This document shows positions 5,620 to 23,601 of a stretch of 33,376 bases of DNA, one piece after another. Numbering within the stretch: the first letter of the stretch is position 1; each line of letters opens with the position of its first letter. The DNA comes from Actinomycetota bacterium. GTDB taxonomy: Bacteria > Actinomycetota > Acidimicrobiia > Acidimicrobiales > Ilumatobacteraceae. A program made the position numbers and the translations under genes. The stretch spans positions 1 to 33,376 of the forward strand of contig QYPH01000036.1 of NCBI GenBank assembly GCA_007279905.1. The letters are read 5' to 3'. The notes beneath the pieces were generated by a model. That model saw only the letters and a program-made list of their open reading frames with translations. It had not been told where the DNA came from and did no database searches.

Positions 5620-6246
5620 TTAGAGAATTCTGATCGCGGCGATCACAATCACTATCAATGCAACGACAGCGGGAATTGCGCGCTTCAAGATCGGTGCACC
5701 TGCAGTACCCAGTAGATCGAGTGGGGCAACTTCGGCACTTTCAATCTTGCGAATTTCTGGGCTTGCAGCTGCAGGTGTTGTTGTAGTTGTAGCAGCCGGC
5801 GCGCTGGTGATCAACTGATTGAGATTTTCGGCAAACTGGGCGAGCAGTTTGTCGCTCACGTCGGCAAGTGCGCCTCGCCCAAATTGTGCAACTTTGCCCG
5901 AGATGGTGAGGTCGGTAACAACAGAACATTTTGTGGATGTTGGTGTCACTGCAGTGAGTTGGGCAGTGATCGTTGCTGACGCGGTGCCCTTGCCAGTGGT
6001 GTCGCGGCCTTCTGCTTTCAGCGATGCTCTGTGTGCGGCGTCGTCACGAGTAACAAAACTTGCTTGGCCCTTGAACTGAGCAACAATTGGTCCAACCTTG
6101 ACTTTGACTTGACCGCGGTAGGTGTCGCCTTCGACTTCGGTGAGTTGTGCGCCTGGCAGACAGGGCGCGATGCGCTCGAGGTCGGTGAGAATGACCCATG
6201 CGTCGTTGACGGGCACATTGACAATGAATTCGTGATTCAGATCCAT
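5620..6246 (-). CDS. coxG: CoxG-like SRPBCC protein with C-terminal membrane anchor
   Basis: The 208-residue product begins with a START/SRPBCC domain typical of the CO dehydrogenase subunit G family: an N-terminal FIVNVPVNDAW segment, then LPGAQLTEVEGDTYRG and VKVKVGPI. A Thr/Ala/Pro-rich linker (about 145-165) leads to a single hydrophobic helix at the extreme C-terminus (about 187-207, VVALIVIVIAAI) that should tether it to the membrane. In Oligotropha-type systems CoxG recruits the molybdoenzyme to the cytoplasmic membrane. Its ATG overlaps the stop of the nucleotidyltransferase gene by one base (TAATG), and the next gene starts 2 bases after its stop, so it is in one operon with both. 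Confidence 0.9.
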   Translation of the reverse strand: MDLNHEFIVNVPVNDAWVILTDLERIAPCLPGAQLTEVEGDTYRGQVKVKVGPIVAQFKGQASFVTRDDAAHRASLKAEGRDTTGKGTASATITAQLTAVTPTSTKCSVVTDLTISGKVAQFGRGALADVSDKLLAQFAENLNQLITSAPAATTTTTPAAASPEIRKIESAEVAPLDLLGTAGAPILKRAIPAVVALIVIVIAAIRIL

Positions 6247-6878
6247 TAGTGAGTTCTCCGAGATTTGATAATGAGCTGGCTTGCTTGTTCGAGGTCTTCG
6301 ATCGTGTCAATGTCGATTGCCGACCCTAAACAGGATACTTCTTCAACAAGTTCACGATGAGAGCGCAGCAAATGTCGCGCGCCTTCGTCGCCGCTTGTTG
6401 GCAACAGAGACCACATTTCTGCATGCAACTTGACAGGGTTGCCACGCTTGGAGTCGTATGTTGCAACTGCAAGTGGGGCAGTGCTGCTGGCAACGAGTTG
6501 CCATGCGCTGGGTGGTACACACGGTTGATCCCCGAGTCCGATCACCACTGATTGCGCACCGAGCGATGCGGCGTAGGCGATGGCGCACTGCACCGAACTT
6601 GCCATGCCGGTCGACCAGTTTGGGTTTTCGATTGAGTGAGGCTGACCCCACAAGCCAAGCGAGGAATGGGCCTGCGAACTCATTGCAAAATCGAGCGGAA
6701 GCGGCGTTTTGCCCGTCACCACCACGACTGGTCCGATGCTTGCCTCAATGGCCGACTCGACTGCCCAGTGATACACAGGGCGTCCCTGAGCCTCGCTCAG
6801 GAGCTTGTGGGTCGATCCTGCAAACCTGGCGCCACTGCCTGCAGCAAGCACTACGGCAACGGTGAGTGACCCTGTCAT
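6246..6878 (-). CDS. MobA/MocA-like nucleotidyltransferase (molybdopterin cytidylyltransferase type)
   Basis: This NTP-transferase has the family signature LAAGSGARF followed by HKLL near the N-terminus, and an acidic metal/nucleotide-binding GLGDQPCVP in the middle. Members next to XdhC and CoxL genes usually attach CMP to molybdopterin, making the MCD cofactor used by CO dehydrogenase-type enzymes, so MocA-like activity is the best inference. I place the start at the ATG at 6878. The frame continues two codons upstream to a TTG at 6884, but neither has a clear ribosome-binding site. The gene is divergent from the NlpC/P60 gene, with the candidate operator region between them, and is translationally coupled to coxG. 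Confidence 0.87.
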   Translation of the reverse strand: MTGSLTVAVVLAAGSGARFAGSTHKLLSEAQGRPVYHWAVESAIEASIGPVVVVTGKTPLPLDFAMSSQAHSSLGLWGQPHSIENPNWSTGMASSVQCAIAYAASLGAQSVVIGLGDQPCVPPSAWQLVASSTAPLAVATYDSKRGNPVKLHAEMWSLLPTSGDEGARHLLRSHRELVEEVSCLGSAIDIDTIEDLEQASQLIIKSRRTH

Positions 6879-6927
6879 ACCCAATGTCTACTTGGGTTTG
6901 AGGAGATCCCCAAATATTACAGTTAGA

Positions 6928-6955
6928 TGACATAAACTGTTACACAGTTGACATA
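6928..6955. promoter_or_regulatory. candidate operator: inverted repeat nested in direct repeats
   Basis: In the divergent intergenic region there is an inverted repeat AACTGT-TAC-ACAGTT (6935-6949). Two TGACATA direct repeats (6928-6934 and 6949-6955) flank it, 21 bases apart, i.e. two helical turns. The arrangement resembles a dimeric repressor or activator site serving one or both divergent genes. No regulator gene was recognised in the window, so the binding protein is unknown. Confidence 0.4.
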
Positions 6956-6973: not shown

Positions 6974-7750
6974 GTGAACTCCACCGCCCCCCGGTCGAGT
7001 CAGGGCCACCGTGTCACCCCCCAAACTATGACCCCACCAGATCTCTCTATCCATAGCAATAGCAATAGCCATTCAGGCACTCGAGCACCAGGGCGTGCTG
7101 TGCGGTTGAGGTGGACAAGTTTCGGACTCGTGGCTGTTGTGACGGTGATGGCAATCGCAGTAGCGATTTTTGGAACACCGACAACAGCGTTGGCCAAGCC
7201 AATGCCAAGTGCACAAGAGCGAGTGATCGCTGAGTCTGCACAAATTGCTATTGAGGTTTTTGATTCGTATTTGACATTGAGTACTGCAGACCGGAACGAA
7301 GTGTTTAGTGCCTATGTTGCCGATATTGCTCAACAAGCAGCAATCTTTTTGGGAGTAGATGTGCGAACAATGCAACGAGCGTGGTTGAGTGCAGACTTGG
7401 TGCACCAGCGTGCTTTGATTAACGGTCTTACGCAACTTGGCGTGCCCTACAAATTAAATTCGGCAATTGAAGATGTGGCGTTTGATTGCTCTGGTCTTGT
7501 CGCATTTGCGTGGGGCAAAGTAGGTGTTGACATGACGCACGGTTCAACAGCACAATTTGCGAGCGCGACTCGTGTGAAAGTGGAAGAAGCGCAACCTGGT
7601 GACTTGATCTGGCGACCCGGTCACATTGCAATGTATCTAGGTGTGCAAAGCGCTGTCTTGCAAACACCGTATTCGGGCAGGAGTGTTGAATTGCAAATGA
7701 TGAATGATCGAGTCACTTCTTGGGTGAAATACGCAAATCCATTGATCTAA
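6974..7750 (+). CDS. secreted NlpC/P60 cell-wall peptidase
   Basis: The product has a basic, low-complexity N-terminus (including alternating Ser-Asn), then a hydrophobic signal/anchor segment at about 49-67 and an ALA-type cleavage site near residue 74. The C-terminal NlpC/P60 domain shows the catalytic Cys in DCSGL (about Cys172) and the catalytic His in GHIAMYLG (about His217), with the usual QPGDLIW strand between. Such enzymes cleave stem peptides of peptidoglycan outside the membrane. The frame starts with GTG at 6974; an ATG at 7028 (residue 19) keeps the whole signal and may be the real start. It is the only plus-strand gene in the left half of the cox island and is not obviously linked to molybdoenzyme maturation. 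Confidence 0.87.
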   Translation: MNSTAPRSSQGHRVTPQTMTPPDLSIHSNSNSHSGTRAPGRAVRLRWTSFGLVAVVTVMAIAVAIFGTPTTALAKPMPSAQERVIAESAQIAIEVFDSYLTLSTADRNEVFSAYVADIAQQAAIFLGVDVRTMQRAWLSADLVHQRALINGLTQLGVPYKLNSAIEDVAFDCSGLVAFAWGKVGVDMTHGSTAQFASATRVKVEEAQPGDLIWRPGHIAMYLGVQSAVLQTPYSGRSVELQMMNDRVTSWVKYANPLI

Positions 7751-7752
7751 AA

Positions 7753-8571
7753 CTATTTGTGAATTGGTCCGTCGCTATCGCGAAGTGACGGCGCTCCGCG
7801 GCCCGTGCGACGTGCAATAATTTCGCCAACAATGGAGATTGCAGTTTCTTCCGGCGTGCGCGCACCGATATCGAGACCGATTGGCGACATCAGTCGCGCC
7901 AATTGATCGGCACTCGTAATGCCCACTTCGGCAAGTCGTTCAAGACGCTTGGCGTGAGTTTTACGGCTACCCATCACACCGATATAGCCAACGTTTGTGG
8001 CAAGTGCGCCCTGCACAGCAGGCACGTCAAACTTTGGGTCGTGGGTCAAAATGCATACTGCATCGCGAGAGGTGAGTGCATGCCCGCGATCACTAAAGAG
8101 TGGTGACGGCCACGAAACCAAAACTTCGTCGGCCATAGGAAAGCGACGGCGAGTTGCAAACACTTCGCGAGCATCACAGACCACCACGTAGTAGCCCAAC
8201 ACTTTTGCAACTTTTGCGAGTGCGGCTGTGAAGTCGACTGCTCCAAAAATCCACATTATTGGTGGTGGCGAAAACGCTTCAATAAATACGCGCACTGTTG
8301 GAGTGTCGACCAAGTCTTCGGGAGTTGTTTGCCCCTGCGGGCCATAATGGCGCACGCCGGTTCGTGCGGCCTCTACTTCGCCAAGCGCATCGCGAGCAAC
8401 AATGCGACTGAGTTCGTTGTCGCCAAGTGTGCCAAGAGCCTCGGTAGACGGTGACACAAGCATCATCGCGCCGATGTTGGGACCATCGATAACGGTGACG
8501 AGTGCTACCGGAATGTTTGAGCGAACTCGTTCGGCAAAAATTGGGTAAAGCGACATGGGTTTGAGCGACAT
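7753..8571 (-). CDS. XdhC/CoxI family protein, Rossmann-domain part
   Basis: XdhC-type proteins bind the molybdenum cofactor and help insert its sulfurated, dinucleotide form into xanthine and CO dehydrogenases. This 272-residue gene carries mainly the C-terminal NAD-binding-like half: IFGAVDFTAAL at about 108-118, VVVCDAREVFAT, and the conserved VGYIGVMGSRKTH block, then SPIGLDIGARTPEE. The ATG at 8571 lies two codons after the stop of the preceding gene, which encodes the N-terminal XdhC piece in the same frame. A second in-frame ATG five codons later (8556) repeats the same local sequence, so either could be the start. The final bases end just before the convergent NlpC/P60 stop. Confidence 0.9.
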   Translation of the reverse strand: MSLKPMSLYPIFAERVRSNIPVALVTVIDGPNIGAMMLVSPSTEALGTLGDNELSRIVARDALGEVEAARTGVRHYGPQGQTTPEDLVDTPTVRVFIEAFSPPPIMWIFGAVDFTAALAKVAKVLGYYVVVCDAREVFATRRRFPMADEVLVSWPSPLFSDRGHALTSRDAVCILTHDPKFDVPAVQGALATNVGYIGVMGSRKTHAKRLERLAEVGITSADQLARLMSPIGLDIGARTPEETAISIVGEIIARRTGRGAPSLRDSDGPIHK

Positions 8572-8574: not shown

Positions 8575-8892
8575 TTACCAGTTGAGCGGCGAGATGAACA
8601 GATGAATAATTCCGCCGCATGTAAGACCTACCGCAAATGCTTCGTCATCTGAGTAACCAAACTTGACAAGCCGGGGTTGTTTGTCGCCGCGCAATATCTC
8701 GAGTGCCTCAGCAACCACTGCGCCTTCGACGCACCCACCACTCACCGAGCCAACTACTTCTCCGTCTTCATTGACAGCCATAGCGGCGCCCGGATCGCGG
8801 GGACCAGAGCCCTCGATGTCGACAACGCGAGCAATAGCAATCTGTTTGCCAGCCTGTTGCCAGCGCTCGATGTCATTGAGAAGTTCGCGCAT
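8575..8892 (-). CDS. XdhC/CoxF family protein, N-terminal domain only
   Basis: This 105-residue protein corresponds to the N-terminal domain of XdhC. It has DIEGSGPRDPGAAM at about 25-38, SGGCVEGAV at about 51-59 with a conserved Cys, and LTCGG at about 90-94 with a second conserved Cys. These cysteines are thought to take part in molybdenum cofactor handling. The gene lies 9 bases after coxE and directly before the gene for the Rossmann half, so the two products probably work as one XdhC. Separate small and large XdhC genes occur in other actinobacteria, so the gene does not look degenerate. Confidence 0.9.
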   Translation of the reverse strand: MRELLNDIERWQQAGKQIAIARVVDIEGSGPRDPGAAMAVNEDGEVVGSVSGGCVEGAVVAEALEILRGDKQPRLVKFGYSDDEAFAVGLTCGGIIHLFISPLNW

Positions 8893-8901: not shown

Positions 8902-10050
8902 TCAATCGCGAGAAATCACTCGAGTGAGATGCTCGAGGGCCTGTATGGAGTGGCCCTCTACAAAGTCGTCAACGAATGGAAGCGCAGCAGCCATTCCGCG
9001 GGCGAGTGGAGCGTAACCCGGGGTGACTTTGAGCGGGTTGACCCACACCACGCGAAAAGCAACTCGCTGCAAGCGCTGCATCTGTTCCGCAAGTACTTCG
9101 GGGTCGCCTCTGTCCCAACCATCGCTGAGCACTACGACAATTGCTCCACGGGCCATTCCGCGTACGCCCCATGTTGCATTAAATCGGCGCAGGCTTTCGC
9201 CTAGGCGCGTGCCTCCGCTCCAGTCGGGCACTTGTGCAGCCGCGCGGGTAAGTGCCCTGTCTGGGTCGCGGCTACTCAGTTCTTTTGTCAAACGAGTGAG
9301 GCGTGTGCCAAATGTAAATGCTTCAACGCGCTGTCTGCCAACAACGGCTGCGTGCATGAAGCGAAGAAGCGCTCTGGCGTATGGCTCCATACTGCCCGAG
9401 ATGTCGAGAAGCACAACGAGTCGGCGTTGGCGCTCACTTGGTTTGCGCCAATGCAGTCGTGCAGACTCGCCACCAAAGGCAAGTGATGCGCGAACAGTGC
9501 GACGCAAGTCGTGTCGTGAACCACTTCGTTTTGCATGTGTGAGGCGCAATGATTGTCGGGGAGGTCCAGCGAGACGAAGTTGATGCATGAGCTTCTGTGA
9601 TTCGTGCAATTCTTCGTCGGTGTAGTTTGCAAAATCCTTATTGCGCAAAGACTCGTTTGCAGTAAAGCGCAATTGCATTGTTTGATTGTCGTCATCAGCA
9701 TTGTTCGCGTCATCATCTTTGTTTTTGTCTTGACCATCTTCGTCGTCGAGCAACAGCGTGATTTTTTGTGGCGGTCCGTCTTCATCGGTGTCGGTCGCAT
9801 TGTGGTGCTCCCAGAAAACCGCAAATGCTCTGTCGAAGAGTTGCTGATCTTCTGGTCGATGCACCAAGGTGGCCCGCCCGGCCCAATACACGTCGTTTCG
9901 CTTGGTCATCGACACAACATCGAGAGCTTGCACAAACGTAATCACCGAATCGATGGGCACGCTGATGCCCGCGCCGCGCAAAACGCGCGCAAACGAAACC
10001 GCCATTTCATCTGCCGATGAGCCAGCAATGTGCATCGCTGCTGTCGACAT
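8902..10050 (-). CDS. coxE: CoxE, VWA-domain protein of CO dehydrogenase maturation
   Basis: The 382-residue protein has an N-terminal helical region, a highly acidic linker rich in Asp and Asn at about 101-123, and a C-terminal von Willebrand A domain. The metal-ion-dependent adhesion site DISGS is at about 216-220, with a later VVLSDGWDRGDPE strand. CoxE acts with the AAA+ protein CoxD in posttranslational maturation of the active site, best known from Oligotropha. It follows coxD by 12 bases, and the XdhC pair follows it, forming an accessory operon. The ATG at 10050 is used. The acidic low-complexity linker is longer than is usual in CoxE, as far as I can judge. Confidence 0.92.
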   Translation of the reverse strand: MSTAAMHIAGSSADEMAVSFARVLRGAGISVPIDSVITFVQALDVVSMTKRNDVYWAGRATLVHRPEDQQLFDRAFAVFWEHHNATDTDEDGPPQKITLLLDDEDGQDKNKDDDANNADDDNQTMQLRFTANESLRNKDFANYTDEELHESQKLMHQLRLAGPPRQSLRLTHAKRSGSRHDLRRTVRASLAFGGESARLHWRKPSERQRRLVVLLDISGSMEPYARALLRFMHAAVVGRQRVEAFTFGTRLTRLTKELSSRDPDRALTRAAAQVPDWSGGTRLGESLRRFNATWGVRGMARGAIVVVLSDGWDRGDPEVLAEQMQRLQRVAFRVVWVNPLKVTPGYAPLARGMAAALPFVDDFVEGHSIQALEHLTRVISRD

Positions 10051-10062: not shown

Positions 10063-10986
10063 TTAGTTGTGCGACAAGCCGCGGTCGAACGCTTGTTTCA
10101 CAAGATCGGCTATGCCCGTTTCGCGCACACGTTCGTGATCTTCGCGATACTTGAGCACTGTGCCAAGTGTTGCGGCAACGCTGGTTTCATCGAGTTCAAG
10201 AATCCCTAGTTGACCAAGCGCTGTTGCCCAATCGATGGTTTCGGCAACACCCGGCGGTTTGTACAAATTGAGCCCACGCATGGCCTCGACTGCGGCGGCA
10301 ACTTGGCGTGCAAGCGATTCGGCAATTTGTGGAACACGCAAGCGCACGATGGCAACCTCGCGCTCAAAATTTGGGTGTTCGACCCAGTGATACAAACACC
10401 GACGCTTCAGTGCATCGTGCACATCGCGCGTGCGGTTTGATGTGAGGACCACGATTGGCGGGGTAGTTGCACTAAATGTGCCGAGTTCGGGAACGGTGAT
10501 TTGAAAATCGGACAAGATTTCGAGAAGGTATGCCTCAAACTCGTCGTCGGCTCTGTCGATCTCGTCGATCAAGAGCACCGCAGGAGTGGTGCGGTTGTCG
10601 ATGGCGCGCAATAGTGCACGCTTGATCAAAAATCGTTCGTTGTACAACTCGCTTTCAAGGAGCGAAGTGTCTTTGGATTTGGCTTCACCCGATGCTTCGG
10701 CTGCGCGCAAGTGCAAGAGTTGGCGCGAGTAGTCCCAGTCGTACACAGCCTGAGATGCATCAATGCCCTCGTAGCACTGCAAGCGAATCAGTTCGCCGCC
10801 TGTCATTGCGGCAATGACTTTTGCCAATTCGGTTTTGCCAACACCAGCTTCGCCTTCAAGCAACAGTGGTCGCTTCAACGAGAGTGCCAAAAACACTGCC
10901 GTTGCTAGACCTTCATCGGCCAAGTAATTCTGACCACCAAGTGCATTTCGCACTTGTGCAACCGATGTGAACGCGTGCAAACTCAT
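10063..10986 (-). CDS. coxD: CoxD, MoxR-type AAA+ ATPase
   Basis: This 307-residue MoxR-family AAA+ protein has Walker A GEAGVGKT at about 45-52, Walker B LLIDEIDRAD with DDEFEAYLLE next to it, and a sensor-1 strand VVLTSNRTRD; the size is normal for the family. In aerobic CO dehydrogenase operons CoxD is an ATP-dependent chaperone needed to build the active site together with CoxE. The ATG at 10986 precedes a typical MoxR N-terminus. It is the first gene of the coxD-coxE-XdhC accessory operon and lies 24 bases after the FAD oxidoreductase gene, so it may be cotranscribed with it. Confidence 0.93.
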   Translation of the reverse strand: MSLHAFTSVAQVRNALGGQNYLADEGLATAVFLALSLKRPLLLEGEAGVGKTELAKVIAAMTGGELIRLQCYEGIDASQAVYDWDYSRQLLHLRAAEASGEAKSKDTSLLESELYNERFLIKRALLRAIDNRTTPAVLLIDEIDRADDEFEAYLLEILSDFQITVPELGTFSATTPPIVVLTSNRTRDVHDALKRRCLYHWVEHPNFEREVAIVRLRVPQIAESLARQVAAAVEAMRGLNLYKPPGVAETIDWATALGQLGILELDETSVAATLGTVLKYREDHERVRETGIADLVKQAFDRGLSHN

Positions 10987-11010: not shown

Positions 11011-12432
11011 TTAGGAGTCGAAGCCCAAACCAAGTCGATCGAGTGTGCGCAGCCAGAGGTTGCGCTTGCCGGTGCGGTCTTCGCGGTTGAGCGCCCAGCG
11101 AGTGGTCTGAATACCAATGAATCGAAATGGCTCTGGCGGAAACGGCAAGGGTTTGCTTTTCACGAATTTGGTTTGAGTGGCCGGAGTCTTGTGGCCGTCG
11201 AGCAAATCGAGCATGACTTCGGCACCAAATCGTGAACTGGCCACGCCAAGGCCGGTGTAACCAATGGCGTAGGCAACTCGGTCGCGCATGGCTTGTCCCC
11301 AAAACACGCTGTATCGGCTACATGTATCGATGGCGCCGCCCCACACGTGTGAAAACTTGACGCCTTCGAGTTGGGGAAATGTTTCGAAGAAGTGTTGTGA
11401 CAATTTCGCCCAACTCTCTGGACGAGATTCCAAATCAACGCTCATTTTTCCACCAAAGAAATACATTGCGTCGTAGCCTCCCCACAAGATGCGATTGTCG
11501 GCAGTGAGTCGGTAGTAGTGAAACTGATTGGAGATGTCAGATAAACCTTGACGATTTTTCCAACCCAGGCTGTCGAGTTGCTGCGCGTTGAGTGGCTCGG
11601 TAACGAGGCAGTAGTCGTATACCGGCGCGATGTAGTTGCGCATGCGCTTGAGAAGCGGCTTAAACGCATTTGTGGCAAGCGCAACATGTTTGGCTTTGAT
11701 ATCGGCGAGCGCAGTTTCTACAGAGACACCGCTGCCCGAGTAATCAAGGCCTGTTGCGCGAGTGTCTTCAAAGATGCGCACGCCAAGGCTTTCGGCTGCA
11801 CTTTTGAGACCCCACACGAGGCGTGCAGGATCAACGAGTGCTGCAGTGTCTTTGCACCACATGCCGCCAGTAAAAATTGGCGATGCAACTTCGCGTTGCA
11901 CTGCCTGTTGATCGAGCCATTCAACTTTGTGACCCAACTCAACCAATTGTTCGTAGTCTTCGCGCATCTCTTCGAGATAGTTGGCAGCATGACGCGTGCT
12001 TGCTATTTCAATCACACCATTGCGCTCGAAGTCGCAGTCGATGTTGTAGCGACGAATTGCTGCCTCAATTTGATTGAGGTTTTCTAAACCCAAGTCTTCG
12101 AGCAAGCCAACTTCTTGAGGAAATCGAGCCTGCGCATTTGCGATTCCGTGCGTCAGGCTTGAATCCATAAAGCCGCCGTTGCGACCACTTGCGGCCGAAC
12201 CAACTTCGTGCGAGTCGATCAGGATGACATCTGCAGATGGATTGCGTTCTTTGGCCAAGATCGCTGTCCATAACCCTGTGTAGCCACCACCGACAATGCA
12301 CAAGTCGCACGAGTCGTCACGTACGAGCATCGGATTGGAGTCGGGTTCGTCGACATCCTCCATCCAATACGGATACGGCTCGGCATCAGCGATCGCGTCC
12401 AAAAAGCGTTCGTCTTCTTGATACCCACTCAT
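11011..12432 (-). CDS. FAD-dependent oxidoreductase of the DAO / amine oxidase-like (PuuB-type) family
   Basis: The protein has an N-terminal dinucleotide-binding motif IVGGGYTGLW (about 46-55), with a preceding acidic segment that resembles gamma-glutamylputrescine oxidase and related enzymes. SAASGRNGGFMD follows, the flavin-contact motif of this subgroup. The C-terminal half contains the conserved GYTGLGVA block of DAO folds. The likely reaction is oxidative deamination of an amine or amino acid using FAD, giving H2O2 or passing electrons on; the substrate is unknown. I choose the ATG at 12432, preceded by GGTGGTGAG, over the GTG at 12447. It lies immediately upstream of coxD on the same strand and is divergent from the SDR gene. 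Confidence 0.85.
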   Translation of the reverse strand: MSGYQEDERFLDAIADAEPYPYWMEDVDEPDSNPMLVRDDSCDLCIVGGGYTGLWTAILAKERNPSADVILIDSHEVGSAASGRNGGFMDSSLTHGIANAQARFPQEVGLLEDLGLENLNQIEAAIRRYNIDCDFERNGVIEIASTRHAANYLEEMREDYEQLVELGHKVEWLDQQAVQREVASPIFTGGMWCKDTAALVDPARLVWGLKSAAESLGVRIFEDTRATGLDYSGSGVSVETALADIKAKHVALATNAFKPLLKRMRNYIAPVYDYCLVTEPLNAQQLDSLGWKNRQGLSDISNQFHYYRLTADNRILWGGYDAMYFFGGKMSVDLESRPESWAKLSQHFFETFPQLEGVKFSHVWGGAIDTCSRYSVFWGQAMRDRVAYAIGYTGLGVASSRFGAEVMLDLLDGHKTPATQTKFVKSKPLPFPPEPFRFIGIQTTRWALNREDRTGKRNLWLRTLDRLGLGFDS

Positions 12433-12491
12433 GGGGTTTCTCACCACCTAACGGCACCAAGTTAGCACCAGTAGCAGTAGCGTTTTGGGCT

Positions 12492-13238: not shown

Positions 13239-13534
13239 TGCTGCAGCATGTCGTAGCAATCACATGGAATGACCAGGTGCCGCCGAACTATGCCGAAACC
13301 GTTTCGACTGTGTTGAACGAGATGGTGTCACAAATTTCTTCAGTGCGTGAATACAACTGTGGCCCAGACTTGGGCATTTCAACAGCAGTCAATGCCGACT
13401 ACCTGATCGTTGCAACCTTTGACGATGTGGATGGGTGGCGCCAGTATGACGAAGATGTCTCTCACAACGAGATTCGTGCAAAGTATTTCAAGCCATACAT
13501 CGCATCGCGCACGTCGGCACAAATTACTCTTTAA
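13238..13534 (+). CDS. Dabb (stress-responsive alpha/beta-barrel) domain protein
   Basis: This is a 98-residue single-domain protein of the Dabb ferredoxin-like fold. It starts with the typical LQHVVAITW strand, then has a helix with VREYNCGPDLG and the DYLIVATFDDVDGWRQYDED block, and closes with HNEIRAKYFKPYI. Dabb proteins dimerise. Some act as cyclases or bind small aromatic molecules, others have no known role. The ATG overlaps the SDR stop by one base (TAATG), so the two are cotranslated and probably work on the same compound. The stop overlaps the convergent PAP2 gene by four bases. The longer open frame upstream is inside the SDR gene and is not used. Confidence 0.87.
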   Translation: MLQHVVAITWNDQVPPNYAETVSTVLNEMVSQISSVREYNCGPDLGISTAVNADYLIVATFDDVDGWRQYDEDVSHNEIRAKYFKPYIASRTSAQITL

Positions 13535-15334: not shown

Positions 15335-17722
15335 TTACATTGCTTTGGCTGCTGATTGAATTGCGCGCCACACATTTTGTGGTGATGCGGGCATTGGCAT
15401 ATACGTAACGCCAACGCCAGACAAGGCGTCAACTACTGCGTTGATCACCGTGCTCGCAGCACCGATAGTGCCGGCTTCGCCTATTCCCTTCACGCCAAGT
15501 TGATTTGTCGGTGAAGGAGTGACGGTGTGGGCAGTGGTGATTGATGGAACATCGCTTGCGGCTGGCACCAGATATTCGGCAAGTGTTGTTGTTTTCAAGT
15601 TGCCATCTGTGTCGTATACAGCCTCTTCAAATAGTGCCTGGGCTAGGCCCTGTATCACTCCGCCGTGTACTTGACCTTCCACGATGAGTGGGTTGATCTG
15701 TACTCCACAGTCGTCAACGGCAACGTATTTGAGTATCTCGATCTGACCAGTTTCGGTGTCGACTTCGAGAACGCACATGTGAGTGCCGAATGGCCAGGAA
15801 AAGTTTGGCGGATCGTAGGTGTACTGCGCTTCGAGGTTTGGCTCGAGACCATCTGGCAAGTTGTGAGCGGTGAATGCTGCAAATGCAATTGCCGCCATCG
15901 GAACTGCTCGGTCTGGCGAACCTTTGACGCTAAACACGCCACCGGCAAACTCGAGGTCATCGGCAGAACACTCGAGTTGGTGCGCAGCAATGAGCCGAGC
16001 CTTGTCGATGACTTTGTCACATGCTCCGGCAATTGCTACGCCACCGACAGGAAGCGAGCGCGAACCGTAGGTGTCGAGACCAAGTGGAGAAATTGCAGTG
16101 TCGCTATGCAGCACATCGATATCTTCTTGCGGAATACCAAGTTTTTCGGATGCAATCATGGCCCACGAAGTTTCGTGTCCCTGGCCGTGTGGCGAGGTGC
16201 CTGTTACAACTTGTACTTTGCACGTTGGCAACACGCGCACGGTTGCTGCTTCCCAGCCACCAGCGCCATAGTTGAGCGAGGCGAGTACACGAGACGGTGC
16301 TAGACCACACATTTCGAAGTACGAACTCATACCAATGCCCAGTCGTTTTTTGGCACCCGGAACATTTTGCTTTGCTTGTTGTGCGCGAATACCTACGTAG
16401 TCGGCAAGACCCGCAGCTTTTTCGGCGGCCTGTAAGTGGTCGCCAGAGTCGTATGTAAGACCGCTAAATGCGAGATATGGGAACTGCTCTTTTTGAATGA
16501 AGTTGCGCTTGCGCAACTCGAGTGGATCGATATTCATTTCGCGCGCAAGTGCGTCCATTGCCGACTCGATGGCGTACGTTGCCTCTGGACGACCAGCACC
16601 TCGGTATGCATCGGTTGGCGTGAGGGTAGTAAAGATGCCATCGCAACTGAAGTCGTAAGCGTGCGGGATGTCGTAGACGCCCGCATACAAGAACGCCCCC
16701 AAGATGGGCACGCCAGGCGTGACCAATTGCAGATATGCACCCATGTCGGCTTTGATGCGTACGCGAACCGCAGTGAGCTTGCCGCCTTTGTCGGCGGCAA
16801 GTTCGACATACTGCACTTGTCCACGACCATGAATGGTGGCCATCGAGTTTTCGCTGCGCTCTTCAACCCAACGTACGGGCAGGCCGTGTTTGCGCGCAAG
16901 CGCCATGCACAACAACTCTTCGGCATACACATCGAGTTTTGATCCGAACCCGCCGCCAACACTTGGCGCAATCACGCGCACTTGTTGCTCGGGAATACCG
17001 AGTGTGAGCGCGGCCATCACTTTGAGAATGTGGGGTATCTGGGTAGACGAATAGAGCGTGATGTCGCCACCAAATGGTTGTGGCACTGCGGCAACCGCGC
17101 GTGGCTCCATGGCCATTGGCAATAGACGCTGCTGCACGTAGCGCTCGCTGACTTTGAACGCGGCATTTTGAAATGCCTCTTCGACGCAACCCTCGGTGGC
17201 CTCAATTTTCAAATTCCAGGTGTAACTCTTGTTGGTACCCAAGTCTTCGTGGATAATGTTGGCATCGCTGAGTGCTTCTTCGACGTCAACAACGGCTTTG
17301 AGAACTGTGTATTGCACTTCAATGAGGTCGAGCGCATCGCGTGATGCACTTTCGCTTGTTGCAAGCACCGCAACCACACCGTCACCGACGTAACACACCT
17401 TGTTTGCTGCAAGAGGAAAGTGCGGTGGGTTTTTCATATCTGCAGTGACCGGCCATGCACATGGCATTGGGCCAGCCCACTGTGACTGCAACTCTGCGCC
17501 GGTGTACACGGCAACAACGCCAGGTGAGGATTTGGCCGCTGCTGTATTGATGCTCACAATTTTTGCGTGTGCATGTGGAGACCTCAAGATTGAAAGATGC
17601 AATGCACCTGGCAAATTGAGATCGTTGGTGAATTTTGCTTCACCAGTCAAGAGGGCAGGATCTTCGCGACGTAGTTGCCTCGTACCGATCACGGTATTTT
17701 GGCGGTTGTCTGTCATTGTCAT
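15335..17722 (-). CDS. coxL: molybdenum-binding large subunit, CO dehydrogenase family form II
   Basis: This 795-residue catalytic subunit binds molybdopterin cytosine dinucleotide. Visible landmarks are GGGFGSK at about 257-263, the active-site loop AYRGAGR at about 372-378, a Gln/His-rich HGQGHET motif in the middle of the second domain, and a C-terminal GIGEAGTIGA containing the conserved catalytic Glu. Form I CO dehydrogenases carry AYxCSFR with the copper-ligating Cys; this one has the form II loop and no such Cys, so CO oxidation is uncertain. The ATG at 17722 has AGGAGA six bases upstream. It follows coxS and precedes coxM, the order usual in form II clusters. Confidence 0.95.
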   Translation of the reverse strand: MTMTDNRQNTVIGTRQLRREDPALLTGEAKFTNDLNLPGALHLSILRSPHAHAKIVSINTAAAKSSPGVVAVYTGAELQSQWAGPMPCAWPVTADMKNPPHFPLAANKVCYVGDGVVAVLATSESASRDALDLIEVQYTVLKAVVDVEEALSDANIIHEDLGTNKSYTWNLKIEATEGCVEEAFQNAAFKVSERYVQQRLLPMAMEPRAVAAVPQPFGGDITLYSSTQIPHILKVMAALTLGIPEQQVRVIAPSVGGGFGSKLDVYAEELLCMALARKHGLPVRWVEERSENSMATIHGRGQVQYVELAADKGGKLTAVRVRIKADMGAYLQLVTPGVPILGAFLYAGVYDIPHAYDFSCDGIFTTLTPTDAYRGAGRPEATYAIESAMDALAREMNIDPLELRKRNFIQKEQFPYLAFSGLTYDSGDHLQAAEKAAGLADYVGIRAQQAKQNVPGAKKRLGIGMSSYFEMCGLAPSRVLASLNYGAGGWEAATVRVLPTCKVQVVTGTSPHGQGHETSWAMIASEKLGIPQEDIDVLHSDTAISPLGLDTYGSRSLPVGGVAIAGACDKVIDKARLIAAHQLECSADDLEFAGGVFSVKGSPDRAVPMAAIAFAAFTAHNLPDGLEPNLEAQYTYDPPNFSWPFGTHMCVLEVDTETGQIEILKYVAVDDCGVQINPLIVEGQVHGGVIQGLAQALFEEAVYDTDGNLKTTTLAEYLVPAASDVPSITTAHTVTPSPTNQLGVKGIGEAGTIGAASTVINAVVDALSGVGVTYMPMPASPQNVWRAIQSAAKAM

Positions 17723-17731: not shown

Positions 17732-18196
17732 CTATTTCTTCGCCGCAGCGAGCACCGACTTCACAATGTTGTGATATCCGGTGCAGCGACAGAGGTTGCC
17801 CTCGAGGCCGAGTCGGACTTCTTCTTCTGTTGGATTTGGATTTTCATTGAGTAAACCAATCGATGCCATCACCATTCCCGGTGTGCAGTAACCACACTGC
17901 AGTCCGTGGTTTTCCATAAATGCTTGTTGCATTGGATGCATCACGCCGTCTTTGCTCAGTCCTTCGATGGTTGTCACCGTCCCACCGTCTGCTTGTACTG
18001 CGAGAACAGTGCAGCTCTTGACTGCTTCGCCGTTGAGATGCACGGTGCAGGCGCCACAACTCGATGTGTCACAACCGATGTTTGTGCCCGTGAGTTGCAG
18101 TTGATCGCGCAAAAAATGTACGAGCAGTGTTCGAGGCTCTACATCTTTTTCTTGGCTTGTGCCATTGACAGTGATGCTGACTGTGATATCAACCAT
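17732..18196 (-). CDS. coxS: [2Fe-2S] small subunit of a CO dehydrogenase-type molybdoenzyme
   Basis: This 154-residue subunit has two [2Fe-2S] clusters. The N-terminal plant-ferredoxin-type cluster uses Cys42, Cys47, Cys50 and Cys62 ([10 protein letters not shown]). The C-terminal cluster uses Cys101 and Cys104 (CGYCTPG) with Cys136 and Cys138 (CRC). All eight are present, so it should be functional. I choose the ATG at 18196, preceded by GGGGGAA about eight bases upstream, rather than a GTG seven codons earlier. It is the first gene of the coxS-L-M operon. A gene-free stretch of about 150 bases upstream, after the cupredoxin-like gene, probably holds the promoter, though I see no convincing boxes. 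Confidence 0.95.
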
Positions 18197-18345
18197 GCTG
18201 TTGTTCCCCCATTCCACTAGTGCGGTGCACTGTGAGTTTGCTTGACGACATCCTGCCTCATAGAGCAGGGTCTTGTCTAACGGAGACGGGAGTTCGGCGG
18301 AGAACTCAGCGGTGAACGGGGTGGTCTACTGGCTGGAGGACGGGG

Positions 18346-18708
18346 TTACTTAACGGTAATTGTCGCGCGCAAAGTAGGGGCTTTGGCGCAGGTAATGGAG
18401 AATGTTCCGCGCTGCGGCAACGGAACGGTCTTTGAACCTTTGGCAGGAACGACCAATAACGTGGCCCCAATCTTGATTCGGTAGGCAATGTCGTCGGTAT
18501 TGATCAAGGTGAGGGTGCCACCTTTGAGTACCACAACTGCGGCTCGACTAAATTTTGCGCTCGAAATTGACAACTTTGCCGAAGTAGGAACAGTTTGTTT
18601 GCTGGGCGAAACGTCGTGCGCAAATGTCTGTGCAGGGGATGCAAGCAAAACGAGAAGCCCTGCAACAACAAATGCTGTGCAGCGTCGGCGCATCGATGAT
18701 GTGAACAT
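18346..18708 (-). CDS. small secreted protein, cupredoxin-like
   Basis: The product is about 120 residues with a basic start (MFTSSMRRR), a hydrophobic signal core at about 12-24 and a probable cleavage site after AQTFA near residue 30. The mature part looks like a cupredoxin beta-barrel: GGTLTLINTDD at about 63-73, a central VPAKGSKTVPL, and GTFSITC at about 101-107. The N-terminal copper His usual after the N-x-D motif is a Tyr here, and no Met ligand is clear, so copper binding is doubtful. I use the ATG at 18708, because the longer open frame overlaps the permease gene. It follows the ABC exporter by 20 bases and is likely in its operon. Confidence 0.7.
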   Translation of the reverse strand: MFTSSMRRRCTAFVVAGLLVLLASPAQTFAHDVSPSKQTVPTSAKLSISSAKFSRAAVVVLKGGTLTLINTDDIAYRIKIGATLLVVPAKGSKTVPLPQRGTFSITCAKAPTLRATITVK

Positions 18709-18728
18709 GGTGCTTAAACAATAACCGA

Positions 18729-19514
18729 CTATTTGTTGAGCTTGTCGAGACCGCGTCGTGCAAACACAAGTGTCAGTGTCGCCATGCCGGCAATTGCAAT
18801 TAATCCACCGAAGGTGTTGTGCCAACTCATGTAGTCGGCAGATGTTGGAAGCACAAGACCTTGGCGTGCGAGTCGCAAAATATTGGTTGCTGGATTGATG
18901 CGCGCAACGTTGTGCAACCAGCCATGCATCAGCGGTAGTGGCATCTGTGCTGTCGAGAGATAGAGCACAACAAACATGGTGAGTTGCATTACTGCAGCAC
19001 CACGCATATCGCGAAATCTAAAAGCTAAGCCAAGACCCCAGCCGAGCGAGATGGTCGAGACGCCAACTGCAGCGATGACGAGCGTAAATAAGCCAAGTAG
19101 TCCGCTCGTAAAGCGAACACCCAGCAGCATTCCCATCGGAATAACAAATGCGCACAATATGGCAATTCGCACCCATGCCGTGAGCAAGGGGCCAATGATG
19201 AGAGCGCGACGTGGAACAGGCGACATCAACAATCGATCATAAAACTTCGTCTCGATGTCTCGAATAGTGGAAAACCCGAGTCCGATGCCGGAGAATGCTG
19301 CACCGAAACAAATACCGAGCGGCATGAACCAATTGACAGATCGATCGGTTGGAAATCCGGGCAGCTGTGTGATTGCCGAAAAGGTTCCGGCAAATGCAAT
19401 CATCGTGAACACCGGCATTGCCATTGAGGGGAAAAATGCAGAGGGCAAACGGCGAAGATTGCGAACTCCGCGCAAGGCGAGCCCGCGAGAACTGCGCATG
19501 GTGGTGATGCTCAT
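18729..19514 (-). CDS. ABC-2 type transporter permease (second of two)
   Basis: This integral membrane protein has about six hydrophobic segments and the ABC-2 permease pattern: a long first extracellular loop after MPVFTMIAFAG, then a cytoplasmic DIETKFYDRLLMSPVPR segment that is the family hallmark. The ATG at 19514 overlaps the stop of the preceding permease by four bases (ATGA), which fixes the start; the longer frame to 19571 is not needed. With the adjacent ATPase and the other permease it forms an exporter of the daunorubicin-resistance (DrrAB-like) kind. The cargo is unknown. Confidence 0.88.
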   Translation of the reverse strand: MSITTMRSSRGLALRGVRNLRRLPSAFFPSMAMPVFTMIAFAGTFSAITQLPGFPTDRSVNWFMPLGICFGAAFSGIGLGFSTIRDIETKFYDRLLMSPVPRRALIIGPLLTAWVRIAILCAFVIPMGMLLGVRFTSGLLGLFTLVIAAVGVSTISLGWGLGLAFRFRDMRGAAVMQLTMFVVLYLSTAQMPLPLMHGWLHNVARINPATNILRLARQGLVLPTSADYMSWHNTFGGLIAIAGMATLTLVFARRGLDKLNK

Positions 19515-20314
19515 CGTGCGGCCAACTTTCGTCGAAGCTCTGTGAGCGCAAACAAAATTGCGGCAATACAAATTGCGGTTGGCACTAACAGCGATCGTGC
19601 TACAGCAGAAAATGAAATCCCTTCGAGCACAAGCGCGCGCAGACCCTCAACAAGATATGAAATTGGGTTGAGGTCGGCTACCCGCTTGTAGGCACCGCTC
19701 ATTGTCTCGCGGGGGAAGAAGGCGCTAGAAAAGAACAGCAATACAAACAACAATGGAAAAGTGCCTTGTACCGCTTCGGCAGAGCCTGTGCGAATAGCAA
19801 CGGATGACATGATGGCGCTGATGGCAAGCGAGACGATGCCGCCCGACAAGATCATTACAAGCGCGCCAGGTATTCCGGCAGAAATCGGTGCATCAAAAGG
19901 AACGAGCACGGCAAGAAAAAATGCAGACTGAAACAACCCGAAAAGCGCACCGCCAGCAAGGCGACCCAACAAAATTCCGGTGCGCGTTGTTGGCGAAAGC
20001 AGCAAACGATCAAAGAAACCATTTTCGATGTCGGTAGCAAGCGCCGCAGCGCCAGTTACCGAACCAAACAACACTCCTTGAACAACAGTTGATGCAAGTG
20101 TGAACTGCATGAACGACTCGACTTTTGGAAAACCCGGTATCGATGTGGTTTTGCTGAAACTTGAAGCGCTGAGTACTGCAAAAAATATGGGGAAGAACAT
20201 GCTTGGCGCAATGAGCGCTGGTTGCCGTGCGATCTCGAGCGTTGACCGCTTGGCCATCGCAACTGTTTGACGCACAGAGAGCTGCCGGCTGCGCACCGTT
20301 GTTTCAGCTGTCAT
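19511..20314 (-). CDS. ABC-2 type transporter permease (first of two)
   Basis: This 267-residue membrane protein has six predicted hydrophobic segments and the ABC-2 hallmark DIENGFFDRLLLSPTTRTG in the cytoplasmic loop. A NPISYLVEGLRALVLEG block before the last helix is typical of DrrB-like permeases. Together with the other permease it should form a heterodimeric channel powered by the ATPase encoded just upstream. The ATG at 20314 overlaps the ATPase stop by four bases and its own stop overlaps the next start, so all three are translationally coupled. Confidence 0.9.
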   Translation of the reverse strand: MTAETTVRSRQLSVRQTVAMAKRSTLEIARQPALIAPSMFFPIFFAVLSASSFSKTTSIPGFPKVESFMQFTLASTVVQGVLFGSVTGAAALATDIENGFFDRLLLSPTTRTGILLGRLAGGALFGLFQSAFFLAVLVPFDAPISAGIPGALVMILSGGIVSLAISAIMSSVAIRTGSAEAVQGTFPLLFVLLFFSSAFFPRETMSGAYKRVADLNPISYLVEGLRALVLEGISFSAVARSLLVPTAICIAAILFALTELRRKLAAR

Positions 20315-21261
20315 GCCTTGGCACCCTCAAGGCGGTGGCCAGTTGCTTCTGCAAATACGTCGTCAAGGCTTGGCTCATTGACTTCCAGGTGTTGCACGCG
20401 TACTGATGCTTCGTCGAGTTGGCGCACAACGTCGGTGACGACATTTGCGCCGCCGCGCAATCCAACACCAAGAGAACCCTCGGCGGTTGGGCGAATCTCA
20501 CCGAAAGTGGCAAGCACGGCTTTGGCGCGCTCAGTCTGATCGGATGGAACGGTGATGAGCAGCGTTGGAAATCCGACACCTGCCTTGAGATCTTGCGGTT
20601 TTCCTTCTCGCACAATCTTTCCTGCGTCGATGATCGCGATGCGGTCTGCGAGTTGATCGGCTTCTTCCAAATATTGGGTAGTCAACATGACAGTGGTGCC
20701 CTCGCTATTGAGCCTGCGCACTTCTTCCCACAGCGACATGCGGCTCATCGGATCAAGACCTGTCGTTGGTTCATCGAGAAACAACACGGTTGGTTGGTGA
20801 ATGAGTGCGAGTGCCAAGTCGAGACGGCGGCGCATGCCACCCGAATACGTGCCAACGCGACGATCTGCTGCTGCTGTGAGACCAACTCGCTCGAGCAACT
20901 CGCTCGCACGGTTTTTCATCTGCGATTGGGGTATTCCGTACAGCACCGCTTGCAAGCGAAGCAATTCGGTGCCGGTCATCAGCGGATCGATTGCTGCGTC
21001 TTGAAGCGCAACACCAATTCTGCGTCGCACCTCATCGGGGTGTTTTGCGACATCGAACCCCGCAACGGTTGCTGTGCCAGAGGTGGGGCGCAAAAGTGTG
21101 GTGAGCATGCGCACCGCTGTTGATTTTCCGGCTCCATTGGGGCCGAGAAAGCCAAAAATTTCGCCAGTCTTCACGGTGATGTTGATGCCATCAACAGCCT
21201 TTACATCGCCAAAATAGCGAACGAGGTCTTGGGCAACAATTGGGTCAGCAGATGAATTCAT
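20311..21261 (-). CDS. ABC transporter ATP-binding protein, DrrA-like
   Basis: This 316-residue ATPase has Walker A GPNGAGKST at about 40-48, a Q-loop at VALQDAAID, the signature YSGGMRRRLD at about 139-148 and Walker B VLFLDEP at about 159-165, then an H-loop in MLTTQYLEEAD. The C-terminal extension of about 90 residues is usual in the daunorubicin-resistance subfamily. It energises export through the two downstream permeases. The ATG at 21261 is used, though no clear ribosome-binding site precedes it. The operon is downstream of the second large-subunit gene, about 57 bases after its stop, and could be cotranscribed with it. Confidence 0.92.
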   Translation of the reverse strand: MNSSADPIVAQDLVRYFGDVKAVDGINITVKTGEIFGFLGPNGAGKSTAVRMLTTLLRPTSGTATVAGFDVAKHPDEVRRRIGVALQDAAIDPLMTGTELLRLQAVLYGIPQSQMKNRASELLERVGLTAAADRRVGTYSGGMRRRLDLALALIHQPTVLFLDEPTTGLDPMSRMSLWEEVRRLNSEGTTVMLTTQYLEEADQLADRIAIIDAGKIVREGKPQDLKAGVGFPTLLITVPSDQTERAKAVLATFGEIRPTAEGSLGVGLRGGANVVTDVVRQLDEASVRVQHLEVNEPSLDDVFAEATGHRLEGAKA

Positions 21262-21318
21262 GCACTAACTGTATGACAGATATCGATCACAAGCTTTGTC
21301 GGAGAAATGTTGTGCGCG

Positions 21319-23601
21319 TTATCGCGCTGCATTGATTGCTGACCACACACGCTCTGGCGTGGCCGGCATATCGATGTGACGCACGACCAAGTGTGAGAGC
21401 GCATCGATTACTGCCGATTGCACAGCAGGCGTAGAGCCAATGGTGCCCGACTCGCCGATGCCTTTTGCTCCAAGTGGGTTGCGCGGTGTTGGCGTCTCCA
21501 TATGGATGACCTGGAAGCTTGGTAATTCGGCTGCGGAGATAAATGCGTAGTCGGCAAAGTTTGATGTGATCGGATTGCCGTCAGTGTCATAGCGAACTTC
21601 TTCCAACAGCGCCTGTGCCGCACCTTGTCCGATGCCGCCATGTATTTGGCCATCCAAAATAAGTGGGTTGATCACTCGACCAGCATCGTCGCACGCAACG
21701 TGTCTGATCAGAGTGACTTTGCCAGTCTCGGTGTCGACTTCCACAACCGATACGTGTGCACCGAAAGGAAATGTTGCACCGTTGGACACGAAGTTTGATT
21801 CTTGAATGAGGCCGCCATCGGTGGCAAGTGCGCTCGAGATGTCGGCCCACGTCTTTGCAACTGCAGGAGTGCCAGCGACGTGAAAAGCCGCAGTGAACTT
21901 GTCGAACACTACGTCGTCTTCAATTGCTTCAAGTAACCGTGCTGCATGCTTGCGGGCTTGCTCAACGAGTTCTTTGGATGCCTGATGCACTGCTGCACCA
22001 CCTTGTTGCAATGAACGTGAACCCATTGTTCCGCCACCCGAGGGAACCGCATCGGTGTCGCCCCACACGACATCGATCATCTCCATCGGAATTCCGGTTT
22101 CGTCACTTGCCAACATTGACCACGAAGTCACGTGACCCTGTCCGTGCGGTGAAGTGCCGGTGTACACAATTGCGCGACCATTTGGAAGAATCTCAACCTT
22201 GCCATATTCGCCAGACGAAGTTCCTGCTGTGATTTCGACATACACACTGACACCAATACCGAGCTGTTTGGTAGCGCCACTCGCACGGCGCGCAACTTGA
22301 TCTTTGCGAAGCTGTGTGTAGTTTGATGCCTCGAGTACTTTGTCGAGCGCTCCTTCAAAGTCTCCGACGTCGTACGTTTGTCCAATTGAAGTAGTGAAGG
22401 GCTCGAGAAACTTTGGAATCAAGTTGATGCGTCGCACTTCTGTCACGTCTTTGCCAATTTCGAGCGCAAACAAATCCATTGCACGCTCGATTGCTGCCGT
22501 TGCCTCGGGGCGTCCTGCACCGCGGTAGGCAACCATTGGTGTGGTGTTTGTTGCAACAGAAGTGGTGCGCACTTCGATAACAGGAATGTCGTACACGCCA
22601 GACGCCATCGGCCTAGTCATGAAAGGAGCAAGAATTGCACCAACATCGACCCATGCACCCGAATCTTGAAGTGCGTGTAATTGATATGCGGTTACTTTTC
22701 CGGCTCGCGTGCCGCCAATGGTGATGTATTGAATCTGGCCACGCCCGTGACCGAGAGCCACCATCGACTCGCTTCGTGTTTCTGTCCAGCGCACAGGTTT
22801 GCCAACCTGTTTTGCAATCTTGCCCAACAACAGATCTTCTGGGTACGCGTCGATTTTTGCTCCAAAGCCTCCGCCAACATCTGGTGTGATCACGCGAACT
22901 TGACCGGCCTCAAGACCGTTGACTTTAAGAATTGCGTCGCGGGCACCTTGGGCGTGCTGCGTCGACAGCCATTGCACCAAGCGGCCGTTGTCCCATGCGG
23001 CTGCGGCACCACGAACCTCAAGGGGGCATGGTGCAACACGCTGATTGATAAACCTGCCTTTGACTACAACTTCGCAATCTGCAAACAATGCATCACCCGT
23101 GTTGTCTGGCATGCCGATAGCAGTTGACTCGAACACAACGTTGCTGCCGACCTCTTCGTAAATATGTGTTGATGATGTCATTGCTTGCTCAACATCGACA
23201 AGAACCTCAAGGGCGTCGTAGTCAACGATCACACGCTCGGCTGCGTCTTCGCCTTGGTTTGCAAGTTCAGTCAGCACCACTGCAACTGGTTCGCCAACAT
23301 AGCGAACCTTGCCGCTTGCAAGGAGCGTGCGCTTGGCCATCGGGTTAAACGAAGCCTCGACTGGTGAGAGAGCAAGATCTTGCGCGGTATAGATGGCCAC
23401 GACACCCGGCATCATTAGGCCTTCAGAAACATCGATGCTTGTGATGTTGGCGTGGGCAACAGTTGATCGAACAAATGTTGCATGCACGGCACCAACCAAC
23501 AATGGCTCGTCGCGCAAGTCGTCGACATAGACACCACCAGTTGTGAGAAATTTTGGATCCTCTTTGCGAAGAACGCGGTTGCCTAAAATGCTTCCAGCCA
23601 T
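21319..23601 (-). CDS. second molybdenum-binding large subunit, stand-alone, form II-like
   Basis: This 760-residue protein of the xanthine/CO dehydrogenase large-subunit family has GGGFGAK at about 243-249, the active-site loop AYRGAGR at about 358-364, a HGQGH motif in the second half, and a C-terminal GIGESGTIGS with the catalytic Glu. It is clearly a paralogue of the coxL at 15335, but the sequences differ throughout. No small or medium subunit gene accompanies it; it sits between ftsB and the ABC exporter. It may borrow CoxS and CoxM from the neighbouring operon, giving a second substrate specificity. The ATG at 23601 has AGGAG six bases upstream. Confidence 0.94.
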   Translation of the reverse strand: MAGSILGNRVLRKEDPKFLTTGGVYVDDLRDEPLLVGAVHATFVRSTVAHANITSIDVSEGLMMPGVVAIYTAQDLALSPVEASFNPMAKRTLLASGKVRYVGEPVAVVLTELANQGEDAAERVIVDYDALEVLVDVEQAMTSSTHIYEEVGSNVVFESTAIGMPDNTGDALFADCEVVVKGRFINQRVAPCPLEVRGAAAAWDNGRLVQWLSTQHAQGARDAILKVNGLEAGQVRVITPDVGGGFGAKIDAYPEDLLLGKIAKQVGKPVRWTETRSESMVALGHGRGQIQYITIGGTRAGKVTAYQLHALQDSGAWVDVGAILAPFMTRPMASGVYDIPVIEVRTTSVATNTTPMVAYRGAGRPEATAAIERAMDLFALEIGKDVTEVRRINLIPKFLEPFTTSIGQTYDVGDFEGALDKVLEASNYTQLRKDQVARRASGATKQLGIGVSVYVEITAGTSSGEYGKVEILPNGRAIVYTGTSPHGQGHVTSWSMLASDETGIPMEMIDVVWGDTDAVPSGGGTMGSRSLQQGGAAVHQASKELVEQARKHAARLLEAIEDDVVFDKFTAAFHVAGTPAVAKTWADISSALATDGGLIQESNFVSNGATFPFGAHVSVVEVDTETGKVTLIRHVACDDAGRVINPLILDGQIHGGIGQGAAQALLEEVRYDTDGNPITSNFADYAFISAAELPSFQVIHMETPTPRNPLGAKGIGESGTIGSTPAVQSAVIDALSHLVVRHIDMPATPERVWSAINAAR

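Follow-up and report, generated by a model that had tools for sequence, protein, structure and literature searches.

How has a set of genes for a molybdenum hydroxylase come to lie inside a cell-division and housekeeping gene cluster, and what does that set encode? The question is raised by contig QYPH01000036.1 (assembly GCA_007279905.1) of an Actinomycetota bacterium of the family Ilumatobacteraceae, order Acidimicrobiales, class Acidimicrobiia. The contig was analysed at its complete length of 33,376 bases, referred to here as the window, and comes from a 1.54-Mb draft genome (93 contigs, 69% complete). Between ftsB and a DUF501-ppx gene it holds a block of cox-type genes (positions 5620 to 23601) that a preliminary description had read as a molybdoenzyme island of about 18 kb inserted at that junction. 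We find that the block is old, common to many members of the order, mostly inherited and later lost in places, and not a recent insertion. We also find, as a new observation, that one of its two large-subunit genes, coxL1, groups in one clade with solo large subunits, which have no genes for a small (S) and a medium (M) subunit beside them. Taken jointly, we regard as probable that an old form II locus at this junction has been inherited vertically with losses, that its L1-type large subunit (L) shares a CoxS/CoxM hub, and that its substrates are organic.

As a measure of whether the junction is closed, the gap between eno and DUF501 was determined in 149 genomes of the class; the counts cover genomes whose two genes share a contig and strand, and 21 went uncounted, their genes lying on different contigs or one or both being missing (4 in the window's family, all with the genes on different contigs, 8 in the order, 9 in the class). 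The gap is below 1 kb in 81 of 85 genomes of the class outside the order. Within the order but outside the family it is below 1 kb in 12 of 31 genomes, all from family f22 and amounting to all 12 of that family, between 1 and 3 kb in two, and at least 3 kb in 17. The window's family has no gap below 1 kb among 12 genomes, the range being 14–75 kb. The phylum was searched as well (118 genomes, 93 with a match, loci taken for the best 30 of the 93): among these best 30 of 93, eno lies no more than 1.5 kb upstream of DUF501 on the same strand in 15 of the 21 loci outside the order, namely 3/3 from other orders of the class and 12/18 from the phylum outside the class. Because of these counts in class and phylum, we take the closed junction to be the ground state and the open one with cox genes to belong to the order. 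The contiguity of eno-ftsB-DUF501(-ppx) from which the preliminary description started is thereby supported, and the cox set does occupy the junction, as an old event and not as a recent island. That description had named the same arrangement in all relatives as the mark of an ancestral rather than an inserted block, and this is mostly what was found, since every one of the 12 family intervals is open.

If the block were a genomic island acquired horizontally in the strain or the genus, a junction that is closed as a rule in the rest of the class and commonly in the phylum is what one would expect to see around it. Against this stand the open intervals throughout the family, a similar gene order in other families, a gene tree that follows the family tree, and the composition of the block itself: G+C is 53.5% within it and 53.3% outside, and mean third-position G+C is 0.528 and 0.534, respectively. 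The two junction stretches (300 and 360 bases) have no direct word of at least 9 bases in common, one inverted 9-mer being the sole word of that length found in both. Neither a transfer RNA (tRNA) nor a transfer-messenger RNA gene was found in the window, and none of the 20 window open reading frames (ORFs) scanned, the rest lying outside that scan, has a Pfam match to a transposase or integrase, in keeping with the earlier remark that no integrase, insertion sequence or tRNA flanks the block. Thus the usual marks of a genomic island (deviant composition, an integrase, a tRNA, boundary repeats) were not seen in the window, with Pfam covering those 20 ORFs, nor is the block absent from close relatives, the interval being open in each of the 12 family genomes whose two flanks share a contig and strand. 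Together, composition, trees and the conservation of the block across genera and families lead us to reject a recent island, which is barely credible.

To see what fills the open junction, the interval was fetched from 49 genomes (16 from the family, 27 from elsewhere in the order and 6 from the class) and the window proteins were mapped on them; order genomes were selected from those in which a single contig carries the two flanks, and f22 is represented by one of its 12. At least some cox genes lie within the interval in 32 of the 49: 16/16 in the family, 16/27 in the rest of the order and 0/6 in the class. The gene order L1-ABC-S-(L2)-M-(SDR)-(DAO)-D-E-XdhC-XdhC-MocA-G changes little from family to family; in f27, S-M is inverted. 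L1 is found within the interval in 13 of the 16 family and 11 of the 27 order genomes, and L2 in 9 and 3, respectively. The set is partial in one family genome (G007) and consists of just S, M and mocA in G041. Among the 11 order genomes that remain, the ABC exporter is present without cox genes in three (G046, G134, G058), the short-chain dehydrogenase (SDR) and mocA are present in one (G184), and seven have other or no genes, with a weak coxG match (36%) in G148. Several order genomes carry additional, unrelated genes in the interval. We considered whether the extra genes of large intervals are island cargo; with four purine/IMP-dehydrogenase genes in G103 and a phosphoenolpyruvate carboxylase gene in G182 (20 ORFs in Pfam), rearrangement is the likelier there.

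A species tree was built from mfd and eno of 60 genomes. Three genomes (G003, G014, G007) were left out because no mfd was fetched for them, as was the mfd of G098 (275 amino acids); nine genomes gave no mfd match, eight of which entered the tree by eno alone while one (G088) is absent. In this tree the order separates from the class outgroup (support 94), the cox-bearing families are spread through the order, and the closed family f22 is sister to the cox-bearing f26 (96). The window's family, f27, f30, f7 with f14, and f26 are all recovered, the exception being f5, which falls inside f1 and is placed on eno alone. A tree of six accessory proteins of the locus (31 rows, rooted on f26) likewise recovers the window's family (100), its genus, f27, f30, and f7 with f14, and its placement among families differs in places from that of the mfd and eno tree. 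The locus gene trees thus appear largely to track the species tree. Since the gene order recurs in other families and the tree largely follows that of the species, we conclude that the insertion is old and mostly inherited: a form II cox-type molybdenum hydroxylase locus would have entered the ftsB/DUF501 junction about the base of the order and would then have been inherited mostly vertically, with losses and reshuffling. A single gain near the base of the order, followed by losses that re-closed the interval, is the simplest reading, in which we infer the direction from gain to loss.

Several observations pull the other way. Ten of the 60 genomes are placed on eno alone, and the cox state (30 of the 60 rows with cox; G054, with an interval of 50 kb, counted as without) takes at least 7 changes on the species tree, a count that cannot tell gains from losses. 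One family genome (G103) has coxD, coxE, XdhC and mocA in the interval without S, M or L, another order genome (G051) has accessory genes only (coxD/E, XdhC, mocA and coxG), and G121 has an interval without S and M together with a close coxM elsewhere, beside an L2-type gene. At least 7 changes of state, like the unrelated extra genes at the junction in several order genomes, would also be expected of a hotspot that had been opened on several independent occasions and had received cox genes repeatedly. An open junction is also found in the class family f36, where it holds 14–16 kb of genes without matches to the window cox proteins (L078, L079; those scanned include TPR, histidine kinase, MFS and thiolase genes), so the site can be opened independently. 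Repeated filling with cox genes is nevertheless quite unlikely, as the long gene order is much alike in distant families, ABC exporter included, and the trees of the locus genes agree for the most part with that of the species; we therefore prefer one old, mostly inherited locus.

The enzyme of this locus is encoded on the minus strand by coxL1 (21319..23601; 760 amino acids), coxS (17732..18217; a small subunit with two [2Fe-2S] clusters, Pfam Fer2_2 and Fer2), coxL2 (15335..17722; 795 amino acids, Pfam MoCoBD_1/2) and coxM (14483..15307; the flavin adenine dinucleotide (FAD) medium subunit, Pfam FAD_binding_5 and CO_deh_flav_C). Both large subunits carry the motif AYRGAGR and the glutamate motif GxGExG. 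PMC7248562 gives AYRGAGR and the S-L-M order as marks of form II enzymes. The transcription order here is coxS-coxL2-coxM, with coxL1 outside the pattern, and CoxS, CoxL2 and CoxM would form a canonical S-L-M enzyme. Among 57 large subunits extracted, 50 have AYRGAGR and 7 have AFRGAGR or SYRGAGR, with no cysteine there in any.

A genuine aerobic carbon monoxide (CO) dehydrogenase oxidising trace CO might be supposed from the coxD/E/G-type accessory genes in the block, and the nearest solved structures by sequence are indeed CO dehydrogenase large subunits (8uem, 1ffu). The motif of form I enzymes is AYxCSFR, which neither window large subunit has. On the form I model TIGR02416 (CO_dehy_Mo_lg; cut-off 991) the two score 505 and 661 bits, the latter being coxL2. 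Form I activity needs a copper-binding cysteine, according to PMC7248562, and in the AYRGAGR of both window subunits that cysteine is missing. Form I enzymes with AYRCSFR or AYACSFR do occur in relatives (G003, G121, G188, G040), and these fall in a separate clade. Because AYRGAGR without the copper-binding cysteine goes together with low scores, CO is an unlikely substrate, and motif and NCBIfam scores lead us to reject CO dehydrogenase as the likelier function, an assignment that looks decidedly improbable. In one relative from the window's genus, a CoxL with AYRCSFR is encoded next to S and M genes of its own (L233, on contig C39 of G003), and true CO oxidation in the genus may take place at another locus. 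For all four catalytic subunits the best or second-best NCBIfam model is glyceraldehyde dehydrogenase alpha, beta or gamma (NF041018-20), with scores below the cut-offs (615 and 624 of 790; 270 of 350; 250 of 290); neither window large subunit attains the cut-off of any NCBIfam model among the matches listed, the best for coxL1 being glyceraldDH_alpha with 615 bits. Judged from these motifs and scores, the substrates that the locus most likely hydroxylates or oxidises are organic ones and not CO.

We then asked how coxL1, which lies outside the S-L-M pattern, relates to other large subunits. Orphan large-subunit genes (20 from eight genomes, with L232 added later) were compared with 19 that have their own S/M genes; one further sequence, L175 (267 bases), was fetched and left unused. 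No coxS or coxM match was found within the 3.7–4.5 kb fetched at the first 20 orphan loci, and likewise at L232. In the large-subunit tree, all 20 orphans tested and the locus coxL1 fall into one clade of 46 rows (support 98), which includes 0 of the 19 self-sufficient large subunits; one of these, L229 of G023, is its sister. The same clade is obtained under a mixture model (98) with eight self-sufficient rows left out.

The solo genes keep company with the locus. Of 29 genomes searched with coxL1 and coxM, 22 have an L1-type gene; locus-type coxM is present in 22/22 of these and in 1/7 of those without (Fisher p 1.5e-5, a value that overstates the association since related genomes are not independent), and the lone exception, G038, has its coxM beside its own L2. 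In total there are 36 L1-type and 25 locus-type coxM genes; of the 22 genomes, 20 have one coxM and two have two, with up to five L1-type genes per genome and more L1-type than coxM genes in ten genomes. At the level of Pfam families, matches to PF20256 (large subunit, among the matches listed and including fragments and fused proteins) are more numerous than those to PF00941 (medium subunit) in 37 genomes out of 44 and just as numerous in the other 7. G049 and G091 each have one PF20256 match (coxL1, among the matches listed) and one PF00941 match, the locus coxM. In G167, a single contig, the interval holds S and M without L, and seven large-subunit genes lie elsewhere without nearby S/M (among the matches listed), three of them within about 32 kb of each other and two divergent.

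From this co-occurrence and these counts we infer that CoxS and CoxM are shared. CoxL1 would be a second, solo-type large subunit that borrows the CoxS/CoxM of the locus, and the further solo large subunits elsewhere in several relatives' genomes would do likewise. Interchangeable catalytic subunits would then draw on the locus as their common hub for electron transfer and maturation, and substrate range would evolve by duplication of the catalytic subunit alone. On balance, and without great assurance, we lean towards one CoxS/CoxM with its maturation genes serving interchangeable form II large subunits, coxL1 and up to seven elsewhere. A number of points count against it. Sharing is read from gene counts. 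The orphans and the genes with their own S/M were picked from profile-match listings ahead of the tree, and the thresholds are our own (at least 650 bits for L1-type, at least 58% identity for locus-type coxM). The absence of neighbours is less sure for three orphans of G040, which lie on short contigs or near contig ends. L204, split across two frames, was left out of the trees yet is among the 36 L1-type genes. Two orphans of G167 (L196 and L198) form long branches, and L198, which keeps AYRGAGR, has GIGQGG with glutamine for the catalytic glutamate, the sole such case among the 57 large subunits; it may be inactive.

This last loss, the gene-count basis of sharing and the other S/M pairs in several of the same genomes would also be expected if the solo large subunits did not use the locus CoxS/CoxM at all, having instead some other partner or xanthine-dehydrogenase-type S/M, or being in part inactive. 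That every genome with an L1-type gene also has a locus-type coxM, and that the sole PF00941 match in the G049 and G091 genomes is the locus coxM, leaves such an arrangement possible but doubtful, and we retain the shared hub as the preferred account of the solo subunits. In the titles and abstract beginnings of open-licence articles in PubMed Central we found nothing on S/M shared among several large subunits, nor on an ftsB-DUF501 cox locus in acidimicrobia.

The gene content and coordinates earlier given for the cox set between ftsB and DUF501-ppx were borne out by ORFs, Pfam and NCBIfam. The block comprises L1, L2, one S, one M, coxD, coxE, two XdhC proteins, mocA and coxG, together with an ABC-2 exporter, a PAP2 protein, a DAO oxidoreductase, an SDR and an NlpC/P60 protein; the genes are spaced as in an operon, two of them (SDR and NlpC/P60) being oppositely oriented. 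Following coxL1 on the minus strand are an ABC ATPase with a DrrA-like C-terminus (20311..21261; ABC_tran, DrrA1-3_C) and two ABC-2 permeases (19511..20314 and 18729..19571; both ABC2_membrane). A sharp AT skew (0.33) at 19001–20000, over the two permease genes, perhaps arises because the hydrophobic residues encoded on the minus strand have T-rich codons. The exporter is doubtful as a necessary partner of the enzyme: G046, G134 and G058 keep it with neither a PF20256 match (among the matches listed) nor a PF00941 match in the whole genome, and the intervals of G003 and G014 hold enzyme genes without it. Its retention between eno and DUF501 without the molybdenum enzyme (L052, L056, L057) suggests a role of its own at the cluster. 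Before coxS comes a small protein with a signal-peptide-like start (18346..18705, minus strand, start codon picked by eye); the longer ORF, 18346–18825, has no Pfam match, and tblastn matches were found in only three interval loci, all of the genus (G003, G017, G007).

Beyond coxM lie a PAP2-family protein (13531..14517, minus; PAP2_3), the SDR (12489..13238, plus; adh_short_C2) and a DAO-family FAD oxidoreductase (11011..12447, minus; DAO). The maturation genes follow, all on the minus strand: a MoxR-type AAA ATPase (10063..10986; AAA_5), which we take to be coxD from its position and general knowledge of cox clusters; the VWA protein coxE (8902..10050; VWA_CoxE); an XdhC_CoxI-domain protein (8575..8892; XdhC_CoxI); XdhC, for cofactor insertion (7753..8571; XdhC_C); a mocA-like molybdenum cofactor cytidylyltransferase (6246..6884; NTP_transf_3), which scores 80 bits on TIGR03310, below the cut-off of 186; and coxG (5620..6246; COXG). 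The NlpC/P60 protein (6974..7750, plus; NLPC_P60) lies between XdhC and mocA. Going by their families, CoxD/E, the XdhC pair, MocA and CoxG would insert the cofactor and link the enzyme to the membrane.

At the left junction coxG and mocA overlap by one base, and the TAA of coxG is followed after 2 bases by the ATG of DUF501-Ppx, just as the preliminary description had it. The placement of DUF501-ppx at the left on the same strand also stands, but not as two genes: it is a single in-frame protein of 468 amino acids (4211..5617, minus; Pfam DUF501 at residues 25–141 and Ppx-GppA at 189–461). All 17 full-length loci of the genus, the window's included (L002-L018), have DUF501 and Ppx in one frame, and in the remaining order loci checked they are in two frames or have stops between. 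The two are fused also in the phylum family f62 (5/5 loci, L100-L104), apparently a separate event. Close relatives of DUF501-Ppx occur in metagenome-assembled genomes labelled Ilumatobacteraceae, Acidimicrobiaceae, Acidimicrobiales, Acidimicrobium, acIV or Actinomycetota (15 loci). At L085 (G043), DUF501 still adjoins eno and an ORF of 1095 amino acids lies between DUF501 and ppx. The right flank is an ftsB-like septum protein (23661..24095, minus), named from its position and the preliminary description; the ORF has no NCBIfam match and stands in the same place after eno in relatives. Read leftward, the minus-strand order is prs, ctc, pth, mfd, a PpiC/SurA-like protein, mazG, eno, ftsB, the cox block, DUF501-Ppx and a GNAT acetyltransferase, the right-hand housekeeping genes having been named by eye from ORF translations. 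The mazG protein ends in a Ser-Ala repeat run (25814–25910, minus), possibly a simple repeat of variable length.

Many genomes carry genes annotated as form II 'CO dehydrogenases'. If solo subunits plug into one electron-transfer pair, counts of coxL would overstate the number of complete enzymes in such genomes and metagenomes; and if the hub is real, a single deletable target (coxM or coxS) would allow all solo subunits to be probed at once. The locus also indicates that a metabolic block can persist very long inside a cell-division and housekeeping cluster without looking like an island.

Among known systems, the form I aerobic CO dehydrogenase of the Oligotropha type is likewise a three-subunit molybdenum, 2Fe-2S and FAD enzyme. 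Its gene set includes coxD, coxE, coxG and XdhC/CoxI-type accessory genes, and the locus has such genes too; the form I gene order is M-S-L, an order not seen at the locus, whose large subunits moreover lack the cysteine in the active-site loop and fall in a separate clade. Glyceraldehyde dehydrogenase resembles the locus subunits as their top or second NCBIfam model and differs in that all of them score below its cut-offs. Closer is the putative form II (BMS-type) CO dehydrogenase encoded by coxSLM, which has AYRGAGR, the S-L-M order and coxG in common with the locus (PMC7248562). In contrast to that system, the locus has a second large subunit before coxS with an ABC exporter between, keeps the maturation set and the SDR, DAO and PAP2 genes in one block at a conserved place between ftsB and DUF501, and has relatives that carry solo large subunits elsewhere. 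Finally, its flanks, with their order and strand, are those of the actinobacterial eno-ftsB-DUF501-ppx cluster; here the cox block separates ftsB from DUF501, and in the window's genus DUF501 and Ppx are fused.

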